Shown here: positions 8,794 to 17,839 of the stretch, piece after piece
Position numbering within the stretch: the stretch's first letter is position 1
How the letters are laid out: every line of letters begins with the position of its first letter
NCBI RefSeq assembly: GCF_003061025.1
Contig: NZ_QAIL01000161.1
Coordinates: 37,561-73,764, forward strand
Direction of reading: 5' to 3'
Source: Pedobacter sp. HMWF019
GTDB taxonomy: Bacteria; Bacteroidota; Bacteroidia; Sphingobacteriales; Sphingobacteriaceae
DNA: 36,204 bases
The notes under the pieces: model-generated
Seen by the model: only the letters and a program-made list of their open reading frames with translations
Databases searched by the model: none
What the model was told of the DNA's origin: nothing
Made by a program: the position numbers and the translations under genes

Positions 8794-9666
8794 CTAGTTA
8801 TGCTTGATCAATGTTGCAGTAAGTGCTGCCGAGGCACCCCCTTTTAACCCGCTGATAAATATGGTATAGATTTTTCCCTGTTCCAGGGTAATTCCGTTAA
8901 GACCACTCCCATTTAAAACAAGTAAAGATTGGCTGGTATGATCTCTCACCTCCAGGTTCAGACTACTCCCGGCATTCACTTCTTTAAAAGGGCCTAGTGT
9001 TTTCCAGCTTAACCCAGGAATAGTTGCGGGTGCCTTACCACTCGCATCATACGTGATAACGACCTGGTCTCCGAAATTGCCATAGGCTACTTTATTAAAC
9101 ACCGCTACTCCTCCGGTATAAGCCAGATCCACATTGGAAGCATCAGGAGAAAAATTAGCAAAACGGATTTTGGCTTTACCAGCAGCTGGTGCAGAGAGGT
9201 CGTCGTATACAAGGATCAGACTGTCCCGGTTTCCTGGATTGAGTTTACTCGGTTTTAATTTTGGAACGGCAAAAAGGGTGTGGTAATAGGTAGCTATTGG
9301 TCCGTTAGGACCTGAAAAAGAGGCTTTATCAGTTTCTTGTACAAAACTGGCATTTCCACCAAATACATAAGAGGATTTATAGGTGGTATTGCTACCTTCT
9401 GTAGTATTGTACTGTACTTTACCAAACTGAGTATCAACATAGCCTGCACTGGACGTATTGCGGGCAATAGAGGTTCCATTAATCTGTCTGGTGAAGTCCA
9501 GGAAATTGATAGCTGTACTAGTGTTTAAGGCATTGACCAGTTTTACTTTGGCACTTAGTGGTGGCCGGTCAGCATTGTCGCTGTCCAGATAATCTGTTTT
9601 CTTGCAGCCAAGAAAAGCGATGGCAAGTAGAGAAAGTTGTATGATTTTTAAGGTATATAGTTTCAT
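8794..9666 (-). CDS. DUF4397-domain lipoprotein
   Basis: 290 residues. A lipoprotein signal ends in LLAIAFLGC with Lys-Lys after the Cys, typical of this phylum's lipoproteins. Two beta-rich repeats follow. The second has the DUF4397 pattern KIRFANFSPDASNVDLAY...VFNKVAYGNFGDQVVI (about 162-205), with a closing LEQGKIYTIFISG. The domain's biochemical role is not known; it is common on exported proteins and often beside outer-membrane receptors. It starts 11 bases after the TonB-dependent receptor, so the two are almost certainly co-transcribed. It may form a surface or periplasmic partner of the receptor, in the way SusD partners SusC, but it has no SusD-like sequence. Confidence 0.8.
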   Translation of the reverse strand: MKLYTLKIIQLSLLAIAFLGCKKTDYLDSDNADRPPLSAKVKLVNALNTSTAINFLDFTRQINGTSIARNTSSAGYVDTQFGKVQYNTTEGSNTTYKSSYVFGGNASFVQETDKASFSGPNGPIATYYHTLFAVPKLKPSKLNPGNRDSLILVYDDLSAPAAGKAKIRFANFSPDASNVDLAYTGGVAVFNKVAYGNFGDQVVITYDASGKAPATIPGLSWKTLGPFKEVNAGSSLNLEVRDHTSQSLLVLNGSGLNGITLEQGKIYTIFISGLKGGASAALTATLIKHN

Positions 9667-9677
9667 GTTTTCCTGGA

Positions 9678-12449
9678 TTAAAATTTCGCGGATACTCTTA
9701 CAAATGGCTGTATGCCGGCATTACTTCCGGATTGGGTTGCGCCGGGAGCTGGCAAGCGGGTAACATTGCTGCCTGGTGCCGGAATACTGTAATCGCCCAG
9801 TACATTGAACAGATTATTGGCGCCTATGGTGGCCTGTATGGCTGGTGTAATTTTATACCCTGCAGAAATATCCGTTACCCAGATCGGGCTGAATTTCTGA
9901 TAGAAATAATCTGGCTTAGGGAAATTGGCATTAAGCTGTGATACGGTGGTTACAGATCCAAAGTATACGGTGCGCAGCAACAGATTGAGTTTTCTGTAAG
10001 TATAAGTTCCTTGTAAAGTGATTTTCTGGGAAGGAATATTACTCGTTACCCGTGCTTCTTCAGATTCATCGAAAATGATATACCTGTAAGCCTCTAATCC
10101 TTTTGGCGTATTTACTTTGGTGAGTGTCGTTTTAAGGAAATTACCTCCGGCAAGAAAAACTGCATTAGCACCATTATCAAACAAAAAACGGTAACTCCCG
10201 GTAAACTCTATGCCACGCGTTCTGGTACTAAAGGAATTGTAAAAGAACTTGGCCTGAACGGTTCCAGTCTGAATAAAAAGACTTCTGACATCGGCGGGAA
10301 GGTTTGGATCAGTCGCAGAAAAACGACCAGTATTCCCTACCCTGTCATTAATGTCTACCTGGTAAGCATCGATGGTGAACTCTACATTTGGAATAGGTCT
10401 GGAAGTAAAACCAGCTGAATAACCTTTCGATTTTTCGGGCGCCAATGTAGGAATTCCAAGGGCCTTAGTGGCTGGATTGACATTGTTTGCGGTAACCTGG
10501 TCTATAGCAACCCCATTTTGAAAAGTTGTGGAAGTTTCGGTATAATAGTACTGGGCGAGGTCTGGCGCCCGGAAGCCGGTATTGATGGATCCTCTAATGC
10601 CCAGCCAATCAGCAAAGCTATACCTTGTGGCCCATTTATAGGTAAATACACTTCCAAAATCCTGAGAATGTTCTACGCGTACTGCGCCGGATACAAGCCA
10701 TTTAGAGGTTACGTTCAACTCTACATCCAGATAACCAGCAGAAATAGAGCGGTTCACATTCACTTCGTTCGAAGGCCTGAAGCCAGCATGGATCTGGGAA
10801 CCAGGCGACAAGCCGTTTAAGGGGGTACTTCCAACCGAAGCATAATACGGGATACCTGTGGTTGTGGTATCTACACGGTAGATGGTTCTCAGGTCAGCTT
10901 TGGAATAGGATGCTTCTTCTCCGGCAATGATCTGATAAGTTTCTACTCTATACTGCCCTCCAAAGGCGACATTTAAGCCTTTTAATACTTTATCAAAATA
11001 CCTGGAGAAATCTATACTAGATGTATTTTGACTGGCATTGTAGCTTCCGGCATCAAATTTACGGGGTGATTTTTGTCCTAAACTGGCATTCATGGAATTG
11101 CTGATCACATTTCCAAAACCATTTTTACCATATACATTAGAGAAGTCTACCGTCCAGTTTTGAACTTTGGCCTTCAAACCAATTGCAATAGATTTGTCTG
11201 TAATAATATTGTCCATAGCTGGTAAGAAACCGTCTGGGTAAAGAAAAGTGTTGTTCCGCTCCGTCCAGCCTGGCAACCTGTATACTGCAGTAAATTGGGA
11301 GTTGCGGTGGCTAATTCCTCCAAATGAATAGATTTCTACATTTTCCTTTACAGGTATGGAAGCGTTAAAGAAAAGTAAACCATCTATAGCTTTATTGGTG
11401 CTTCCTCGCTGGTCAAAATAGTGTCGGTCTATCCCTCTGCCTGCTATAATAGCATCATCAATTTCTCGGGTATAAATCTGGTCAAATCCTCTTGTATTTG
11501 CTCCTCCTCCATAGGCTGGACCAATGTAAAGACCGGCATCACCATTGCCCACCGGCAGGGAAACGGCCTGGGTGGCAAATTCACCAGTAACATTGAGAAA
11601 TCCGCCTTTATCGCCAATTTTTACACCATAATTACTACTGGTTCTGGTGGTTAAACCATCTCCCCTTCGTCTGGCACTAGCCGTTGAAGTGAGCGACAAT
11701 TCATCTGTGTTTTTTTTAAGTACAATATTAATAACCCCGGCAATAGCGTCTGAGCCATACTGCGCCGCTGCACCGTCTCTCAGAATCTCAATACGCTCTA
11801 TGGATCCAGTGGGTATAGCGTTCAGATCATATCCGGTTGCGCCATTACCCAATCCACCCCAGCTAATGTTGGAACTCTTATGGCGTCTTTTTCCATTAAC
11901 CAAAACCAGTAACTGATCTACGCCCAGCCCTTTAAGTTGTGCGGTAGAGGTGGCAGAGGCAGCATCTCCTCCTCCAGATACAGAAGAATTAAACGATGGG
12001 GAAACGTATTGCAGCAACTGGGTTACGCTGACCTGCGGAGAGGTTTCCTGCAAACTTTTTAGATCAATCACGTCTATAGGGGTGGCTGAATTGAGTGTTG
12101 TCCGGTTTACGTTTCTAGATCCAACAATTTCCAGTTCATTTAGGGTGTTGTCTTTTGATGCCTCTAAACTTACACTGATCTGGCTGTTTCCCCCAATTTC
12201 AATTTCCTTGGTTTCATAACCCAAATAAGAAAACAAAAGATATTTTCCATTTTTTACAGTAATTTTAAAACTACCATCCGTATTGCTGACTACGCCACCG
12301 CTCAGCCCTTTTACGCGGATCGAAACTCCGGGCAGTGGCAGTCGATCAGCAGAGGAACTTACAGTTCCGGTAATTGCCCTGGGCTGGGCATAGGTCTTTA
12401 TAGAGATAAAGAGTATAAATAGCAGGTAAAAGAGTATATATTTTTTCAT
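9678..12449 (-). CDS. TonB-dependent outer-membrane receptor with carboxypeptidase-like N-terminal domain
   Basis: 923 residues from ATG 12449; a TTG one codon earlier is less likely. It has a signal peptide (1-22), then a CarboxypepD_reg-like domain (about 24-105, ITGTVSSSADRLPLPGVSIRVKG). The plug domain carries LVLVNGKRRH, NAIPTGSIERIEILRDGAAAQYGSDAIAGVINIVLKK and a C-terminal beta-barrel ends in VSAKF, an outer-membrane type terminal residue. This is a CirA-like receptor and not a SusC: the SusC signature and a SusD partner are absent. The substrate is unknown. The position after thioredoxin-like, YceI and cytochrome c peroxidase genes, and behind a polycysteine leader, suggests uptake of a sulfur compound, metal complex or haem-like molecule. 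The gap to the upstream peroxidase gene is 100 bases and contains a weak hairpin (ACCTG/CAGGT around 12490-12504). Confidence 0.9.
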   Translation of the reverse strand: MKKYILFYLLFILFISIKTYAQPRAITGTVSSSADRLPLPGVSIRVKGLSGGVVSNTDGSFKITVKNGKYLLFSYLGYETKEIEIGGNSQISVSLEASKDNTLNELEIVGSRNVNRTTLNSATPIDVIDLKSLQETSPQVSVTQLLQYVSPSFNSSVSGGGDAASATSTAQLKGLGVDQLLVLVNGKRRHKSSNISWGGLGNGATGYDLNAIPTGSIERIEILRDGAAAQYGSDAIAGVINIVLKKNTDELSLTSTASARRRGDGLTTRTSSNYGVKIGDKGGFLNVTGEFATQAVSLPVGNGDAGLYIGPAYGGGANTRGFDQIYTREIDDAIIAGRGIDRHYFDQRGSTNKAIDGLLFFNASIPVKENVEIYSFGGISHRNSQFTAVYRLPGWTERNNTFLYPDGFLPAMDNIITDKSIAIGLKAKVQNWTVDFSNVYGKNGFGNVISNSMNASLGQKSPRKFDAGSYNASQNTSSIDFSRYFDKVLKGLNVAFGGQYRVETYQIIAGEEASYSKADLRTIYRVDTTTTGIPYYASVGSTPLNGLSPGSQIHAGFRPSNEVNVNRSISAGYLDVELNVTSKWLVSGAVRVEHSQDFGSVFTYKWATRYSFADWLGIRGSINTGFRAPDLAQYYYTETSTTFQNGVAIDQVTANNVNPATKALGIPTLAPEKSKGYSAGFTSRPIPNVEFTIDAYQVDINDRVGNTGRFSATDPNLPADVRSLFIQTGTVQAKFFYNSFSTRTRGIEFTGSYRFLFDNGANAVFLAGGNFLKTTLTKVNTPKGLEAYRYIIFDESEEARVTSNIPSQKITLQGTYTYRKLNLLLRTVYFGSVTTVSQLNANFPKPDYFYQKFSPIWVTDISAGYKITPAIQATIGANNLFNVLGDYSIPAPGSNVTRLPAPGATQSGSNAGIQPFVRVSAKF

Positions 12450-12549
12450 CAATATGTTGGTTTAGGTTTGGACATAAAGGCTCCTGTTCACCTGTTTTCA
12501 GGTAAATCGTCGTGTATAAATGAAGCCGATTACTGGAGTATTGTAGAGG

Positions 12550-13506
12550 CTATTTTTTCACAAACCGATCATCTGTCAGAGAAATTAAAAAAGCCTCTAG
12601 GTCGTTGATTTCGTCTTTAGTAAGACCAAGAGGTTTGCTTAAGGCAAGGTCTCTGTTTTTACCATTTTTGACCACATCGTCTGGTGCATTGTAATAGTTG
12701 ATTACCTCTTTCAGGGTCTTAAACATACCGTTGTGCATATACGGTGCGGTTACGCCTACATTTCTGAGGCCCGGTATTTTAAACTCACCTATATGTTCTG
12801 CATTTTTAGTTACCTCATACCTTCCAGCATCATTGAGCTCTTTGCCATTGAATAAGCCAATGCTTTTAAAACGGTCAGCTGTAAAATCTTCTCCTGAATG
12901 GCAAGTATTGCAGTTGGCTTTTCCGATAAACAGCATCCGTCCGCGGACGGCTGCAGGAGAAATGGCATGGTCGTCGCCGTTAATGTATCTGTCATATGGG
13001 CTATTAGAGGTTTCCAGGGTACGTTCATAGGCAGCAATTGCCTGCAACATATTTTTTTCAGTCGGAAGGGAATTGAATACCTTTTTAAATAACTCCACAT
13101 AGAGTTTACTGCTGTTGAGTCTTTCCAGAGCTTCATGAGCAGAAAGGTTCATTTCAACCGGATTAATGATCGGTTGCAAGGCCTGCTCTTCCAGTGAGGC
13201 TGACCTACCATCCCAAAACAAGTGGGAACGTCCTGATAGATTGGTTACTGTCGGCGTATTCCTGGCCCCCTTTGTACCTCCGACACCCAGGCTTACGGCA
13301 GAGGTATCTGCAAAGGCAAACTCTGGTTTATGGCAGGATGCACAGCTAATACTCTGGTCTTTAGAAAGTATGGGATCAAAAAACAATTTCTCTCCTAATC
13401 TCTCCCTGCTGTTGATTTCGGCAGGATCATCTGCCTGAAAACCAACTGTCATGGTGAAGACCAGTAAACTTAAAACAGTAAAGATTTTTATTTTATTTCC
13501 TTTCAT
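12550..13506 (-). CDS. Di-heme cytochrome c peroxidase (CcpA/MauG family)
   Basis: 318 residues from ATG 13506; the frame extends to a TTG at 13521 that sits inside a hairpin. A hydrophobic signal (about 6-24) places it in the periplasm. Two c-type heme motifs are visible: CASCH (Cys55-His59) and CNTCH (Cys199-His203). Family motifs include RNTPTVTNLSGRSHLFWDGRS (82-102), the NPVEM loop (115-119) and PYMHNGMF (255-262), which would supply the Met ligand of the electron-transfer heme. The enzyme reduces hydrogen peroxide with electrons from cytochromes or other periplasmic donors. Some relatives instead oxidise proteins or organic substrates. It belongs to the six-gene cluster, so a role in peroxide defence or redox processing with the thioredoxin-like proteins is plausible. 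Confidence 0.92.
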   Translation of the reverse strand: MKGNKIKIFTVLSLLVFTMTVGFQADDPAEINSRERLGEKLFFDPILSKDQSISCASCHKPEFAFADTSAVSLGVGGTKGARNTPTVTNLSGRSHLFWDGRSASLEEQALQPIINPVEMNLSAHEALERLNSSKLYVELFKKVFNSLPTEKNMLQAIAAYERTLETSNSPYDRYINGDDHAISPAAVRGRMLFIGKANCNTCHSGEDFTADRFKSIGLFNGKELNDAGRYEVTKNAEHIGEFKIPGLRNVGVTAPYMHNGMFKTLKEVINYYNAPDDVVKNGKNRDLALSKPLGLTKDEINDLEAFLISLTDDRFVKK

Positions 13507-13520
13507 CTCAGATTTTAACA

Positions 13521-13547
13521 AGGAAGCTGCCCATTGGGCAGCTTCTT
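13521..13547. terminator. GC-rich hairpin between the yceI-like and peroxidase genes
   Basis: GAAGCTGCCC (13523-13532) and GGGCAGCTTC (13536-13545) pair perfectly around an ATT loop, with one or two further weak pairs outside. On the minus strand it follows the YceI stop and lies 15 bases before the peroxidase ATG. The sequence after it (CCTTGTTAAAA) is not a strong U tract. It may be a partial terminator or mRNA-processing hairpin that sets different expression of the two halves of the cluster. Confidence 0.55.
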
Positions 13548-13559
13548 TATAAGATTCAG

Positions 13560-14159
13560 TTACTTATTGGCCACCAGCGCGACATTCAGATCGAAATCAT
13601 CATAGATCAGTTTATCACCCAGGTTTTCGAAGAAACTTTTTGACCTGAACTTGATTCCATATTTACTACGGTCTACAGTGATCTTTGCATTGGCCGTCAA
13701 TTTGGCGTTGTCTACCTTAACTGTGGCAGGGAAAGAAACTTCATTGGTTACACCTTTGATGGTCAGCTTTCCTTTGATTTCATATTGTCCGCCTGTCAAT
13801 GGTTTAGCAGAAGTAATGACAAAATTAGCTTTGGGGTATTTCTCAACACCAAAGAAATCATCACTTTTCAAATGACCAAGGAGCTTACCATTGGTTTCTG
13901 CATCAGTTACATCTGTTACCGTAATGGATTTGGTGTCGAGTTCAAAGCTGCCGCCTTTTAAGACATTATTTTCTACATTAAGTGTTCCTGAGCTGACAGC
14001 TATAGTGCCGCTGTGCTCTCCGGTTGCTTTCTTAGCTTGCCAGTTGAGTTTACTACTTTGGCCATCTACTTTATAGGAAACTACCTTGAAGGGTGCAAAG
14101 GCGTAAATACTACCTGCAAGCAGAAGAACTGCGAGGTTTTTAAGGTTTGTTGATTTCAT
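13560..14159 (-). CDS. YceI-family periplasmic lipocalin-like protein
   Basis: 199 residues with a signal peptide (about 1-22). The body fits the YceI domain: YKVDGQSSKLNWQAKKATGEHSGTI, then FELDTKSITVTDV, LKSDDFFGVEKYPKANFVITS, LTIKGVTNEVSFPATV and VDRSKYGIKFRSKSFFENLGDKLIYDDFDLNVALVA. YceI proteins bind polyisoprenoid or amide-type ligands in a lipocalin-like barrel, and many are induced by stress or high pH. Their exact job is unsettled. It starts 24 bases after the second thioredoxin-like gene and is followed by a hairpin before the peroxidase gene. Confidence 0.93.
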   Translation of the reverse strand: MKSTNLKNLAVLLLAGSIYAFAPFKVVSYKVDGQSSKLNWQAKKATGEHSGTIAVSSGTLNVENNVLKGGSFELDTKSITVTDVTDAETNGKLLGHLKSDDFFGVEKYPKANFVITSAKPLTGGQYEIKGKLTIKGVTNEVSFPATVKVDNAKLTANAKITVDRSKYGIKFRSKSFFENLGDKLIYDDFDLNVALVANK

Positions 14160-14183: not shown

Positions 14184-15473
14184 TTATTTAGATTGTGCGT
14201 TGAAGTAATCAGCATCCGGTACAGGTTCAGCAATGAGTTCATTTAGAACTTTGTTAAACTTAGCTGCATACTCATCATAGTATTTTCCGGTTACCTGACC
14301 AGTAAATCCCGTATAAATTTCTCTAACTTCTCCCTTACGGTCTATGATAATTGTGGTTGGATAAGCAATGAATTTATTCAAGGCCGGAAGTTTATCTGCA
14401 ACCAATCTTTTATCGGCAAGACCTCCAAAAAGAATATCATACTTAACCTTGTATTTATCACGGAGCTTACCCAAAACATATTTTCCATATTCAAGGTCAT
14501 CCTTTTGCTCAAAACCGATGGCAATGGCTTCTACACCACGATCTTTATTCTTATCGAACCATGGGGCAAGAAAGACGGTCTGGTCTGTGCAGTTCGGACA
14601 CCAGGTTCCTACCAGTTCCACAATCACCACTTTACCTTTATATTTCTCATCAGTAAGAGATACTGGCTTTCCGCTAAGGTCTGGGAAGGTAAAGTCTAAT
14701 CTTTTAACACCCTCTTTTAGATGCGTGAGCTGATAGGGATCTGGAAGTTCGGCTTTAGCGTCTTTAACTCCTGTAAATTTCAGGTTATCGTAAATTCCCT
14801 GGCTAATCTCTCCCGAAATGGTACCATCTTCATTGATGTGTCCTTTGTAGATTTTTGGGCTTGGACCAGTAAAACCGGATAGTACAAATTCATTACCTTG
14901 TACAGTACCTTCCAATTCCCGGCTGTCGCCAGTAACCTGCATGATCACTCCTGTAAGTTTATTTCCTGTTTGCTTTAAAATCGCTACTTTATTTGGTACC
15001 GCCTCTTTGGAGAAACCTTTGAATTCCCATTTACCTGAAAGATCAGCTGCCGGTGCAATATCTTTTCCTGGTTCAACAAAACGATAGGATTTGCCTTCTT
15101 CTGCTGTAAATGGCAGAGAATTGCCGCGAAGGCCTGGAACCAGGCTACGATATTCGCCGCTGATTTTCCCATCAGATTCTATTTTGGCCACTAGTGCAGC
15201 ATCATAGGTGTTCATTTTAATAAACAGAGAGTCTTTGCCTAGTCTTTCTACATGGAAATCATCGCGACGAGTCCCATTGATCAATGTAAAAACAGCATGC
15301 TCCGGGTCTTTACCTTTCAACTCAAAGTTGAAAGGTACTTCATTCTCACTGATCCTGAAGACACCACGCCAGATGCCTTGTTTAATAAAAGGTACATGGT
15401 CATCCGCATAGGTGGCGAATGAAGCCAGTGTGACCAGTCCGAGGGATAACAGCCCTATAATTCTTGTTTTCAT
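14184..15473 (-). CDS. TlpA-like thioredoxin-domain protein, copy 2 of a tandem pair
   Basis: 429 residues with a signal peptide ending near TYA (about 1-23). The first 240 residues are two beta-rich segments (GIWRGVFRISENEVPFNFELKGKDP and DLSGKWEFKGFSKEAVPN...LEGTVQG) that I cannot name. The last third is a TlpA/AhpC-TSA domain (about 255-410) with VELVGTWCPNC, where Cys292 and Cys295 form the redox pair. The cis-Pro region AYPTTIIIDRKGEV follows. It should act as a periplasmic thiol-disulfide reductase, for example for cytochrome c maturation or for reducing a partner protein. Its closest relative in view is the neighbour at 15498-16805; the two align along nearly their whole length, so they arose by tandem duplication. 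Confidence 0.85.
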   Translation of the reverse strand: MKTRIIGLLSLGLVTLASFATYADDHVPFIKQGIWRGVFRISENEVPFNFELKGKDPEHAVFTLINGTRRDDFHVERLGKDSLFIKMNTYDAALVAKIESDGKISGEYRSLVPGLRGNSLPFTAEEGKSYRFVEPGKDIAPAADLSGKWEFKGFSKEAVPNKVAILKQTGNKLTGVIMQVTGDSRELEGTVQGNEFVLSGFTGPSPKIYKGHINEDGTISGEISQGIYDNLKFTGVKDAKAELPDPYQLTHLKEGVKRLDFTFPDLSGKPVSLTDEKYKGKVVIVELVGTWCPNCTDQTVFLAPWFDKNKDRGVEAIAIGFEQKDDLEYGKYVLGKLRDKYKVKYDILFGGLADKRLVADKLPALNKFIAYPTTIIIDRKGEVREIYTGFTGQVTGKYYDEYAAKFNKVLNELIAEPVPDADYFNAQSK

Positions 15474-15497: not shown

Positions 15498-16805
15498 TTA
15501 TTTTCCTTTGGTAGCAGATGAAACAGAAGCCGTTACTGAAGGAACAGGTTCTGCAATCAATTCGTCAAGTACTTTATTGAATTTCGCTTTATACTCTTCA
15601 AAATATTTCCCTGTTACAGTCCCTGTATAGCCCGTATAGATTTCTCTAACTTCTCCTTTACGATCAATAATAATGGTGGTTGGAAACGCGATGAATTTAT
15701 TGAGCGCAGGTAATTTTTCAGCAACTACCTTTTTATCCGCAATACCCCCAAAAAGGATGTCATACTGGATGTCATATTTATCTCTGAGTTTGCCCAGTGT
15801 ATATTTGGCATAATTCAGATCATCTTTTTGCTCAAAACCTATTGCAATCGCCTCTACACCCCTTTTTTGATTTTCTTTAAACCAGGGTGAAAGGAATACA
15901 GTTTGATCTGTGCAGTTTGGGCACCAGGTACCAATAGTCTCTATGATCACAACTTTGCCTTTATACTTATCGTCGCTCAACGATACTTGTTTGCCGTTAA
16001 GGTCCGGGAAAGTGAAGTCTAGTTTTTTGTAGCCTTCTTTGAGGAAAGTAAGTTTGTATGGATCAGGAAGTTCAACTTTGTCATTCTTGATACCATCAAA
16101 CTTCAGGTTCTTATAGATTCCGAATCCCTGCTCACCACTAATACTGTTATCGTCATTAATGGTTCCTTTAATGATAAAAGGGCTTGGTCCGGTAAAACCT
16201 GACAATTGAAATTCATTACCTTGCACGGTGCCTTCCAACTCCCGGGTATCACCAACTACAGTCATAATTACACCGGTGAGTTTATTGCCAGTTTGTTTTA
16301 ATAAGGCAATGGACGCAGGTACAGCTTCTTTCGTGTAGGTTTTGATCTCCCACTTACCTGATATGTCATGAGCGGGTTTAACATCTTTTCCAGGTTCAAC
16401 GAAACGATAGCTTTTTCCCGGTTCTGCTACAAAAGGAAGTGAATTACCTCGAAATCCAGGAACCAGACTTCGGTATTCTCCGGTCAGCGTGCCATTATCT
16501 TCAATTTTAGCAACCAATGCTGCATCATAGGTATTCATTTTCACATAGATTGAATCTGCTCCTCTTCGGTCTACGTGAAAATCATCTCTTCTACTACCGT
16601 TCAAGAGTGTCAATACGGCGTGTTTGGGATCTTTGCCTTTAAATTCGAAGTTAAAAGGCACCTTCGATTCACTGACATTAAATTCGCCGCGCCAAATACC
16701 TTCTTTAGGGAAAGGTTTAAGTCCGGCAGCAAAGGTATGACCACCCAGTAGTAATACGGCTGCGAATAGTTTAGTTGCGGTTGGATAGGTTTTAATTTTC
16801 ATCAT
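15498..16805 (-). CDS. TlpA-like thioredoxin-domain protein, copy 1 of a tandem pair
   Basis: 435 residues, start ATG-ATG at 16805/16802, signal peptide ending near TFA (about 1-26). The architecture is the same as its neighbour: a beta-rich N-terminal half (GIWRGEFNVSESKVPFNFEFKGKDP, DDFHV, NTYDAALVAKI, SLVPGFRGNSLPF, LEGTVQGNEF). A C-terminal TlpA domain follows with ETIGTWCPNC (Cys295, Cys298) and AFPTTIIIDRKGEV. It is the first gene of the six-gene cluster, 24 bases before copy 2. An unusually long leader of about 445 nt separates it from the nearest good promoter. Likely a periplasmic thiol reductase; the N-terminal domain may bind a partner or ligand. Confidence 0.85.
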   Translation of the reverse strand: MMKIKTYPTATKLFAAVLLLGGHTFAAGLKPFPKEGIWRGEFNVSESKVPFNFEFKGKDPKHAVLTLLNGSRRDDFHVDRRGADSIYVKMNTYDAALVAKIEDNGTLTGEYRSLVPGFRGNSLPFVAEPGKSYRFVEPGKDVKPAHDISGKWEIKTYTKEAVPASIALLKQTGNKLTGVIMTVVGDTRELEGTVQGNEFQLSGFTGPSPFIIKGTINDDNSISGEQGFGIYKNLKFDGIKNDKVELPDPYKLTFLKEGYKKLDFTFPDLNGKQVSLSDDKYKGKVVIIETIGTWCPNCTDQTVFLSPWFKENQKRGVEAIAIGFEQKDDLNYAKYTLGKLRDKYDIQYDILFGGIADKKVVAEKLPALNKFIAFPTTIIIDRKGEVREIYTGYTGTVTGKYFEEYKAKFNKVLDELIAEPVPSVTASVSSATKGK

Positions 16806-16918
16806 CTTAATTATTAAATGTTAATTTATACGCTATTTGATAGCTCGGTTTGAGCAATTTTCCCGTTGTTGAGAATTTCCCAGATTTCAACGAGGCTCCC
16901 TTCTTTTCTATAAATCAA

Positions 16919-17040
16919 CTAATTAATGGTGGTGATTAATTAGAGGTGGTATTTGTTCAGTCCCGATATCCCCCTTTATTACAGCAAGCCCGAATAAATG
17001 ACCACCATAATATTCCGGTTACTAAATGCCGGGGGATATC
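16919..17040 (-). promoter_or_regulatory. Structured leader segment with nested inverted repeats and possible loop-loop pairing
   Basis: GGGGGATATC (17031-17040) and GATATCCCCC (16965-16974) are perfect 10-base arms enclosing 56 bases. CTAATTAAT (16919-16927) and ATTAATTAG (16935-16943) form a second hairpin. Read as minus-strand RNA, the loop of the second hairpin contains CACCACC. The 56-base loop contains AUGGUGGU, which is complementary to the downstream ACCACCAU, so a kissing or pseudoknot contact is possible. A smaller hairpin (GCTAT/ATAGC near 16832-16844) follows before the start codon. I do not recognise a described riboswitch. The segment also contains an ATG-nine-codon frame (MVVIYSGLL), probably chance. 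Confidence 0.5.
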
Positions 17041-17113
17041 AGGACATCCCAAATCAATAGCCGTTGGTTCGTACAGCTGCTTTTTATTCCGTAAAATTTA
17101 AAATTTGACCCTT

Positions 17114-17135
17114 AAAAAATGTGTTTTTAACACAT
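17114..17135 (-). terminator. Attenuator-type intrinsic terminator overlapping the leader-peptide stop codon
   Basis: On the minus strand ATGTGTT (17135-17129), AAA loop (17128-17126) and AACACAT (17125-17119) form a perfect 7-base stem, followed directly by TTTTT (17118-17114). The 5' arm holds the last two codons (Met-Cys) and the first base of the stop codon of the 30-codon leader ORF, so a ribosome at the end of that ORF would block the hairpin. Confidence 0.75.
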
Positions 17136-17219
17136 ACAACACCTGCAACAACAACAGTTTTCCATGCACCTGTTAGGGTGGTCATGCATGGGAAAATAGA
17201 TTCTAATTGATGTTTTCAT
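17127..17219 (-). CDS. Polycysteine leader peptide (30 residues), putative attenuator ORF
   Basis: ATG at 17219 to TAA at 17127 encodes 30 residues beginning MKTSIRIYFPMHDHPNRC and ending CCCCRCCMC. Eight residues are Cys, at positions 18, 22, 23, 24, 25, 27, 28 and 30; two His occur at 12 and 14. A strong promoter lies about 37 bases upstream of the ATG and a terminator overlaps the stop codon. Within the ORF, the stretch for codons about 8-21 contains a second hairpin (CCATGCA/TGCATGG, plus 17162-17168 and 17185-17191, extended by AAAA/TTTT with a bulge). The arrangement of promoter, short ORF with a run of one codon type, and terminator is that of amino-acid attenuators. Alternatives are a nascent-peptide sensor for copper or another thiol-binding metal, or a free small metal-binding peptide. 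It is too short for routine gene callers. Confidence 0.75.
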   Translation of the reverse strand: MKTSIRIYFPMHDHPNRCMENCCCCRCCMC

Positions 17220-17255
17220 ATCAGGTATGACTGCGTTATTTTCAATAATTAATGT

Positions 17256-17285
17256 CAAAGATAGAAATGAAATCTGAAAAAACAA
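17256..17285 (-). promoter_or_regulatory. Bacteroidota-type promoter of the polycysteine leader and cluster
   Basis: On the minus strand TTG (17285-17283), a 19-base spacer and TATCTTTG (17263-17256) match the phylum's -33/-7 consensus TTG-N19-TAnnTTTG exactly. Transcription should start near 17250, about 30 nt before the leader ATG at 17219. The -33 element overlaps the U tract of the response-regulator terminator just upstream. Confidence 0.8.
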
Positions 17286-17314
17286 TTAATTCTACTAAAA
17301 TAGTAGAATTAATT
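17277..17314 (-). terminator. Intrinsic terminator of the response-regulator gene
   Basis: AATTAATTCTACTA (17284-17297) and TAGTAGAATTAATT (17301-17314) are perfect 14-base arms around AAA. On the minus strand the stem is followed by GTTTTTTC (plus A run 17277-17282). It lies 68 bases after the response-regulator stop and insulates the polycysteine-leader promoter. Confidence 0.85.
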
Positions 17315-17382: not shown

Positions 17383-17739
17383 CTAAATATGATCTTCTAT
17401 TCTCTTTAGTAATGTTTTTAACTCGAAAGGCTTACTCAGAAAATCATTGGCGAAGTACTGGTCGATCATTTCATGCTGCGGGAAATGAGCAGACATCAGG
17501 ATGACGGGTACCTCTTCTGTACCGCTACCTTCTTTCAGATTTTTACAGAGCTGGAGTCCATCCCCATCCGGCAACCGGATATCCATCAAAATAAGATCAG
17601 GATGATGATGTACCATATGTTTTTTAAAATCATAGGCCGAAGCAGAAACACTAACGTCATAACCGGCATCCTGCAGTGTAAATTCAATAATGAACCTAAT
17701 ATCTTCGTCGTCTTCTACAACATGAACTTTTTTTCGCAT
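17383..17739 (-). CDS. Single-domain response regulator (CheY-like receiver)
   Basis: 118 residues from ATG 17739; an upstream extension to 17781 adds a sequence unlike a receiver start, while MRKKVHVVEDDEDI is the usual beginning. The acidic pair D10/D11, the phosphoacceptor D53 in LILMDIRLPDGDG, the conserved Ser83 (VILMSAH) and Lys103 (FLSKPF) are all present. There is no output domain, so it must act by protein contact or as a phosphorelay intermediate. The hybrid kinase at 1592-3838 is one candidate partner, but there is no positional link. Transcribed as a single gene with its own terminator. Confidence 0.9.
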   Translation of the reverse strand: MRKKVHVVEDDEDIRFIIEFTLQDAGYDVSVSASAYDFKKHMVHHHPDLILMDIRLPDGDGLQLCKNLKEGSGTEEVPVILMSAHFPQHEMIDQYFANDFLSKPFELKTLLKRIEDHI

Positions 17740-17839
17740 GACTTGCGCTATGGTTTTATAGTTCAAGTATAAGATTATCACTTTAACTCTGATGTTCCAG
17801 CTGATTAAGAAAAAGTTAACTGCAAGATTTTAAATTAAA

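Follow-up and report, generated by a model that had tools for sequence, protein, structure and literature searches.

Cysteine-rich leader ORFs beside SAM-I riboswitches in Bacteroidota: a candidate composite sulfur sensor and its variant ahead of a TlpA cluster in Pedobacter

The leader of a TlpA-YceI-MbnH-TonB gene cluster in Pedobacter sp. HMWF019 carries, within the window (the whole 36,204-nt stretch of DNA analysed here), a short ORF that ends in a run of cysteine codons. Probably this ORF is translated into a regulatory leader peptide through which the supply of cysteine (charged tRNA-Cys) is sensed; it would act through refolding of the leader and induction of the cluster. From its counterparts in relatives we propose a wider scheme, to which we give about as much credence as doubt. 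This is a composite sulfur sensor of the Bacteroidota, in which the P1 helix of a SAM-I riboswitch would gate a Cys-rich ORF and the ribosome would read cysteine, either as codon supply or through a nascent arrest peptide that senses thiols. In this way a single leader would compute methionine/SAM and cysteine status for metY/metX, a methionine transporter and the TlpA/MbnH/TonB cluster, and the window would be a case in which the riboswitch half is dead and the cysteine half enlarged.

The leader of the TlpA cluster in the window

The leader runs on the minus strand, between a response-regulator gene (17383-17781) and the first gene of the cluster, which encodes a TlpA-like thioredoxin-fold protein (TlpA1, 15498-16805). 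The genes that follow on the same strand encode a second TlpA-like thioredoxin-fold protein (TlpA2, 14184-15473), a YceI family protein (13560-14159), an MbnH/MauG-type di-haem enzyme (12550-13521, with scores under the NCBIfam cut-offs), a TonB-dependent receptor (9678-12452) and, as the final gene of the run, a DUF4397 protein (8794-9666). These six genes are those given in the preliminary description, which held the leader to be empty apart from a promoter, an ORF and a terminator. It is not: a palindrome, a long hairpin, a hairpin with a CACCACC loop and a degenerate SAM-I element are also there. From 5' to 3' the order is palindrome, promoter, Cys ORF, weak hairpin, long hairpin, CACCACC hairpin and SAM-I remnant, and none of 100 shuffles folds as stably as the leader (z -5.3).

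The 27-nt palindrome, TTAATTCTACTATTTTAGTAGAATTAA (17286-17312), adjoins the promoter on its upstream side and is a candidate repressor operator; from its resemblance we take it to be perhaps of the Rrf2 type. Comparable palindromes were seen by eye 5' of the -7 element in relatives, for example TAGTCTATAAAATTTATAGACTA in the Chitinophaga locus L109. At 17256-17285 (minus strand), where a consensus promoter had been noted, TTG (17285-17283), a 19-nt spacer and TATCTTTG (17263-17256) form what we take to be a match to the Bacteroidota-type promoter consensus, and like motifs (TATCTTTA or TATACTTTTA) are carried by the leaders of relatives. A sigma-70 scan, which is blind to promoters of the Bacteroidota type, gave two sites elsewhere, where shuffles gave 3.6. 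As the predicted -7 element ends at 17256 and the AUG lies at 17219, the AUG is some 30 nt past the predicted start and the ORF would not be leaderless.

The ORF itself, MKTSIRIYFPMHDHPNRCMENCCCCRCCMC, spans 17127-17219 on the minus strand, with its ATG at 17219-17217 and the last base of its stop codon at 17127; its assignment rests on the sequence, a chance test and positional counterparts in relatives. Frame reading bore out the composition first described, namely 30 codons with eight Cys, seven of them among the final nine codons (CCCCRCCMC). Tandem Cys codons stand near its 3' end and, as in attenuators of the trp/his type, codons of one amino acid are clustered within a short ORF. When the 577-nt intergenic stretch was dinucleotide-shuffled (n=5000), an ORF with at least seven Cys among its final nine codons never arose (0/5000) and one with at least three Cys within five residues arose 42 times (42/5000). 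The Cys run of the window ORF is not chance. The exact run is unique to the window among the genus genomes searched, the best match to the exact peptide in 118 other genus genomes being no better than E 0.0089. Its eight Cys exceed the count in every TlpA-leader ORF at the 79 loci described below, where the maximum is six. A search of the curated leader-peptide models of NCBIfam, given 29 of the 30 residues, returned 0 families at E<=10.

Over the last codons and the stop lies a weak terminator-like hairpin, ATGTGTT-AAA-AACACAT followed by TTTTT (17114-17135, minus strand). Its stem (17135-17119) is exact and its T run (17118-17114) is in place, just as first described, but the structure has two G-C pairs and -4.7 kcal/mol, and an equally good hairpin was present in 33/3000 shuffles. 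A terminator scan of the leader omitted it and gave another weak site at 17078-17059. In the mechanism originally suggested, a ribosome on the Cys codons would mask the 5' arm of this hairpin and so block intrinsic termination at 17114. The exact 7-bp stem with its T run fits such a model, which we nevertheless consider improbable in view of the low stability, the shuffles and the rarity of the arrangement: an exact stem of at least 5 bp with a loop of 3-8 and then TTTT was found near the stop in 2/53 Cys ORFs, the window's counted in. For want of conservation the stop-codon terminator was rejected as a mechanism common to these leaders, and in the window it would be a local addition at best.

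Two hairpins further downstream appear to be better candidates for the acting element than the stop-codon terminator. The long hairpin predicted at 16960-17045 (minus strand) carries ATGGTGG near its tip (GGTGG at 17006-17002), and the next hairpin (16919-16943, minus strand, from sequence and fold), CTAATTAAT-CACCACC-ATTAATTAG, has a loop complementary to that GGTGG; a kissing contact between GGTGG and CCACC is an attractive candidate. We prefer these hairpins because they recur in Pedobacter and Mucilaginibacter, in whose leaders, folded individually, comparable long hairpins were seen and the complementary GGTGG and CCACC motifs are again present. The CACCACC-loop hairpin is near-invariant in our alignments A2 and A3. 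A consensus fold of the long hairpin from 21 sequences (window, Pedobacter and Mucilaginibacter) retained seven pairs, one of them changed on both sides, in a poor alignment, so that covariation lends this hairpin hardly any support. ATGGTGG was not found in Chitinophaga leaders with an SSGCMP ORF, though CCACC is kept there. Complementarity over 9 nt of the ORF (17185-17177) to the hairpin, seen by eye, was dropped as being, by estimate, roughly at chance level.

Cys ORFs and SAM-I elements ahead of the cluster in relatives

A search for TlpA1 in 99 genus genomes gave some match in 97, many of them merely distant thioredoxin-fold paralogs; an ortholog with at least 78% identity is present in 17/99, the window's own genome included. 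Keeping the best 80 of 154 relatives gave 79 loci for the comparison of leaders, from Pedobacter, Mucilaginibacter, Chitinophaga, Dyadobacter, Siphonobacter and others. Downstream of TlpA1 on the same strand, MbnH is found in 76 of these loci, YceI in 64, the TonB receptor in 60 and TlpA2 in 41, with some loci ending early.

For a strict test we required a sense-strand ORF of 8-50 codons with at least three Cys in five residues, not more than 900 nt upstream of TlpA1. Such an ORF is present at 43/79 loci (best 80 of 154 relatives), against 3/79 on the antisense strand and 41/1580 in shuffles. By clade, the hits comprise 12/18 in the Pedobacter group (which takes in one Sphingobacteriaceae MAG), 20/21 in Mucilaginibacter, 10/20 in Chitinophaga, 1/19 in Cytophagales and 0/1 in a Chitinophagaceae MAG. 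Absence of Cys codons from relatives with this cluster, which the preliminary description named as refuting it, was not observed: Cys-cluster ORFs occur at most Pedobacter-group and Mucilaginibacter loci and at half of the Chitinophaga loci. The 36/79 loci that failed include 10/20 from Chitinophaga and 18/19 from Cytophagales, and the six Pedobacter misses hold two-Cys forms (RCCMS, RCCLLA, RCCF, RCCK, RCCHFMAA and RCCLFMAA). The ten Chitinophaga hits divide into seven with an SSGCMPCCC-type ORF, two that look incidental (L100 and L105) and one that is ambiguous (L116). Several Mucilaginibacter leaders have two Cys ORFs. Peptide ends at the TlpA loci are clade-specific (NCCCR, RCCMS, CCCMCM, RCCCMVQYVFWF, RCCCCCL, SSGCMPCCCS, RCCTCCC), and since they differ between clades, clustered Cys is the shared feature.

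Many of these leaders also hold a SAM-I element of a derived sequence type. A covariance model, R1, was built from 25 variant SAM-I elements, which it then finds itself; it matches the TlpA leader with 98-128 bits at 21/21 Mucilaginibacter loci and 11/18 loci of the Pedobacter group, more weakly at two Siphonobacter loci (57-58 bits) and one Flectobacillus locus (43), and at 0/20 Chitinophaga loci. The Rfam SAM-I family RF00162 scored over its cut-off in the leader at four of six loci tested (L002, L003, L005, L015) and, among twelve others, at six (L061, L065, L070, L074, L082, L092), with a match only further upstream at L072 and L073 and none at L100, L109, L117 and L131. In Pedobacter the element lies between the ORF and TlpA1. 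In Mucilaginibacter it is directly 5' of the Cys ORF, which begins 8-9 nt past it in 20/21 TlpA leaders; in L086 a two-codon ORF at +4 comes ahead of the Cys ORF. The distance from SAM element to Cys ORF is 6-10 nt in L070, L097, L137 and L138. A tandem pair of variant SAM-I elements precedes the Cys ORF in single leaders of L070 (4575-4827) and L097 (4575-4826). Within the genus, L214, L209 and L205 have a divergent SAM-I about 1 kb upstream of TlpA1, before a small conserved protein (MSVYFDYPSIRDFFEIHGNTSCEKLDDYEHCK..).

In the window the alignment to R1 reveals a degenerate SAM-I riboswitch at 16821-16918 (minus strand), ending 15 nt before TlpA1, with its closing helix P1 kept and its core broken. 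It scores 46.4 bits, a value that is by itself no proof of decay since SAM-I elements of the ordinary kind at other places in these loci reach 31-46 bits with R1. We judge the remnant to be decayed because several inner-helix pairs are broken, the GCAAC and GTGCT core is visibly lost and the Rfam SAM families gave no match to the window at E<=5, the gathering score of RF00162 not being reached. In L073 and L099, judged by eye, the outer helix is again retained and the core missing. Five Pedobacter loci, namely L071 (whose leader sequence is incomplete upstream), L072, L075, L076 and L139, carry a Cys ORF in a leader that, over the length examined, shows no SAM element. On these comparisons, several lineages with a Cys ORF have lost the riboswitch half or never acquired it. 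The window ORF might be regarded as a chance frame, or one decaying after loss of the SAM riboswitch, as the degenerate remnant and the unique Cys run would allow. We hold this to be very improbable: the frame has more Cys than any of its counterparts, its run did not arise in shuffles, and promoter and hairpins are kept.

SAM-I elements and Cys ORFs at metY/metX and other genes

SAM-I elements were surveyed in 40 genomes of the genus, giving 127 rows, of which 113 were analysed, 109 with the gene found. Excluded were seven rows of G020, G027, G038 and G039 and one weak row of G019, and six TlpA leaders were handled separately. Genes were named (metY, metH and so on) by visual inspection of their start sequences, and one example of each was checked: metY and metN pass curated cut-offs, metH is a partial match, and MetX and cysteine desulfurase are best matches under the cut-offs. 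An ORF with at least three Cys was present in 34/35 SAM-I leaders of metY/metX, compared with 1/34 for metH, 0/9 for cysteine desulfurase and 5/31 for other genes. The corresponding controls were 5/30 for TPP riboswitch leaders (29 loci over the family cut-off and one below) and 303/3500 for shuffled metY/metX leaders. The build is therefore not unique to the TlpA cluster, as had been supposed, Cys ORFs standing also behind SAM-I at metY/metX.

The spacing is equally regular. Wherever the end of P1 could be recognised in metY/metX leaders (34/34; that of L243 could not), the first AUG lies 5-9 nt downstream and the ORF that it starts has at least two Cys, whereas in metH leaders the first AUG is 14-172 nt away from P1. 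Typical metY/metX peptides end in ACMCCCIG, TCMCCCIQ or ICMCCCIY, and also in ..CMCCCIQ. In 31 metY leaders the ORF stops 73-157 nt ahead of the gene (median 131). Past the Cys ORF, the metY leaders L227-L263 show two conserved hairpins, CUUCC/GGAAG and (by eye) CCC/GGG, then TACGC; CCCU/AGGG and CCUC/GAGG were seen by eye as variants of the CCC/GGG stem. The post-ORF part had no Rfam match in the two leaders tested. In a consensus fold of the metY leaders, checked for a conserved antiterminator, the hairpins seen were all local, and no covarying alternative pairing was established in either the window-leader or the metY consensus folds.

The window's own genome has a SAM-I element with a Cys ORF at metY (L142; the protein is over the TIGR01326 curated cut-off). 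It also has a SAM-linked five-Cys ORF, not adjoining the aptamer, before a TonB receptor (L140, ..MCAAFHHPCCMH), a cysteine desulfurase with SAM and without a separate Cys leader ORF (L141), and metH with SAM, where a two-Cys ORF overlaps the gene out of frame and there is no separate Cys leader ORF (L143). In one genome SAM-I and a Cys ORF precede metN (L264, SCCLYVCCCPAR). Within the genus, several TonB-receptor leaders with SAM-I (among L144-L169) hold short ORFs whose Cys are fewer or more spread out (NACFRMRGVC, HHCCRMCM, YMQKNCCC); these may be a weaker version of the module.

A survey at the level of the class covered 69 loci, or 68 sites, L310 and L336 being the same site. Here, outside the genus, 7/11 metY leaders have an ORF with at least three Cys 2-15 nt past the SAM element; L307 has two Cys, and L312, L318 and L322 have no Cys ORF. 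Leaving aside the window's own family, such an ORF with at least three Cys is found in 5/8, in four families. Ends from outside the genus include ..VEFSTCCCCCC, ..CWCMCCCCCCMLS, ..HICWCMCCCCCCMLS, ..KCCCCTAA and ..CCMCICCPCC, with up to six consecutive Cys. For metH the class-level figure is 1/30 with a three-Cys ORF, 50 nt away. Among six additional genomes, the ORF of one metY leader has two Cys (L353) and another metY leader is without any Cys ORF (L359). In L337, from another Bacteroidia genome, SAM-I is followed after 3 nt by an ORF ending in ICCCMCCCC.

These findings bear on the signal. Cysteine shortage, or a metal or thiol signal, had been put forward for the cluster; sulfur amino acids are favoured over copper because Cys ORFs recur both at the TlpA cluster and behind SAM-I at metY/metX. 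Sensing of copper or another metal by a Cys-rich leader ahead of an MbnH/MauG-type redox cluster would suit the peptide's cysteines and the MbnH/MauG-like enzyme and TlpA proteins encoded downstream. It appears very improbable, as the same kind of leader at metY/metX and, in one genome, metN, tied to SAM-I, would be unexpected for copper. Metal as the main signal was set aside on these grounds.

Selection on the peptides, proposed mechanism and known systems

Third-position bias, suggested earlier as a check on the ORF, was found in one group of ORFs and was slight or absent in others. In 13 Mucilaginibacter ORF2 sequences, chosen by their FWF-type end, pairwise changes numbered 973 at third positions against 577 and 510 at first and second positions, and 3-nt indels keep the frame. 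Ends of the RCC..Q[YF].FWF type are present at 13/21 Mucilaginibacter loci, picked by that pattern. The metY and Pedobacter groups show little or no third-position bias and their N-termini drift; single-change codons were 1549 synonymous against 3449 nonsynonymous in the metY group and 68 against 153 in the Pedobacter group. Beyond their Cys codons, many of these ORFs are free of amino-acid constraint; this is common in leader peptides and does not demonstrate translation. At several Cys positions both TGT and TGC are used.

In Dyadobacter, 6/48 genomes have a strong R1 match, and at the four loci read the module is found ahead of the cluster's divergent YceI-TonB half or of its TonB gene. The ORFs (25-34 aa) begin 5-7 nt past P1 and end in [KR]CCP[GNE]DKWRS in 6/6. 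The module with the conserved CCPxDKWRS was recorded at L123, L124, L125, L136 and L368-L373. Over the last ten codons, pairs of four equal-length ORFs differ by 29 synonymous and 7 nonsynonymous changes, two of the four being near-identical, so that the independent events are few. Judged by these substitutions, the peptide end CCPxDKWRS is under selection at the amino-acid level, which favours a real product and is also compatible with a nascent-chain sensor.

In a nascent-chain sensor, the peptide itself, through its thiol state, a metal or an arrest sequence (CCPxDKWRS or RCCCxVQYAFWF), would stall the ribosome and set the leader fold. We regard this as unlikely, though it draws on the conservation of post-Cys residues within clades (Dyadobacter and the FWF-type Mucilaginibacter peptides), for which a pure codon counter would have no need. 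Between clades and genes the ends are unlike (CMCCCIQ, CCCCCC, NCCCR, CCCMCM) and Cys alone is common; the metY/metX and SAM setting indicates sulfur amino acids, and the Dyadobacter comparison has the few independent events just noted.

Under the preferred reading, in which the ORF reports cysteine supply, scarce cysteine would slow the ribosome at the Cys codons. The slowed ribosome would alter folding of the leader, involving the long GGTGG hairpin, the CCACC hairpin and possibly the weak terminator, and the altered fold would, at the level of termination, RNA decay or TlpA1 translation, raise expression of TlpA-YceI-MbnH-TonB, which may serve as a redox/uptake system for sulfur limitation. 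Translation initiation in Bacteroidota is largely without Shine-Dalgarno pairing. Where relatives have the riboswitch directly 5' of the ORF, a P1 closed by bound SAM would lie 5-10 nt ahead of the AUG and lower translation of the ORF, and methionine/SAM and cysteine signals would converge on a single leader.

The usual view of a SAM-I riboswitch is that it controls the gene behind it. The partner element in relatives passes the Rfam cut-off for SAM-I (S box, RF00162); the window copy fails it, and in relatives P1 can abut the leader ORF instead of the main gene. In mycobacteria, leaderless polycysteine short ORFs are reportedly cysteine-responsive attenuators of operonic expression. By description, they are like the window ORF in being short, with a run of consecutive Cys codons near the 3' end; they differ in phylum and in being leaderless, whereas the window's AUG follows a predicted start and in relatives a SAM-I riboswitch ends 5-10 nt ahead of the AUG.

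Upstream of cysS in Rhodobacterales, the uORFC-8-2 motif is a leader ORF with tandem Cys for which ribosome-mediated attenuation was proposed; it differs in its two Cys codons, a 3' U run in all cases and its occurrence in alphaproteobacteria, and the accessible part of that paper mentions no riboswitch (PMC8632094). A cobalamin riboswitch at ppe2 of Mycobacterium tuberculosis acts via translation of a uORF (Kipkorir et al. 2024, in PMC12713380) and is similar in being positioned to govern an upstream ORF. As far as the accessible text describes it, the ppe2 uORF overlaps the gene by 4 nt in a translational relay (PMC12713380), whereas the metY leader ORF ends well before its gene and has its own Cys codons. 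Accessible portions of other reports speak of unspecified leader-peptide attenuation ahead of amino-acid operons in Flavobacterium psychrophilum (PMC9723704) and of unspecified sORFs in Bacteroides leaders (PMC7366714). In the literature within our scope, with subscription papers largely outside it, neither SAM-I joined to a Cys-rich leader ORF nor such leaders in Bacteroidota were found. Attenuators built on Cys codons and riboswitches acting via a uORF are thus already known; what appears to be new is the joining of SAM-I to a Cys ORF, in several families.

If the scheme is true, a riboswitch and ribosome-mediated attenuation would be united, in several families belonging to one class, in a single device that integrates the two sulfur amino acids. 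Natural variants of it are on hand, with both halves, with the cysteine half only and with a decayed riboswitch. For the uncharacterised TlpA-YceI-MbnH-TonB cluster, sulfur limitation would be a physiological lead.
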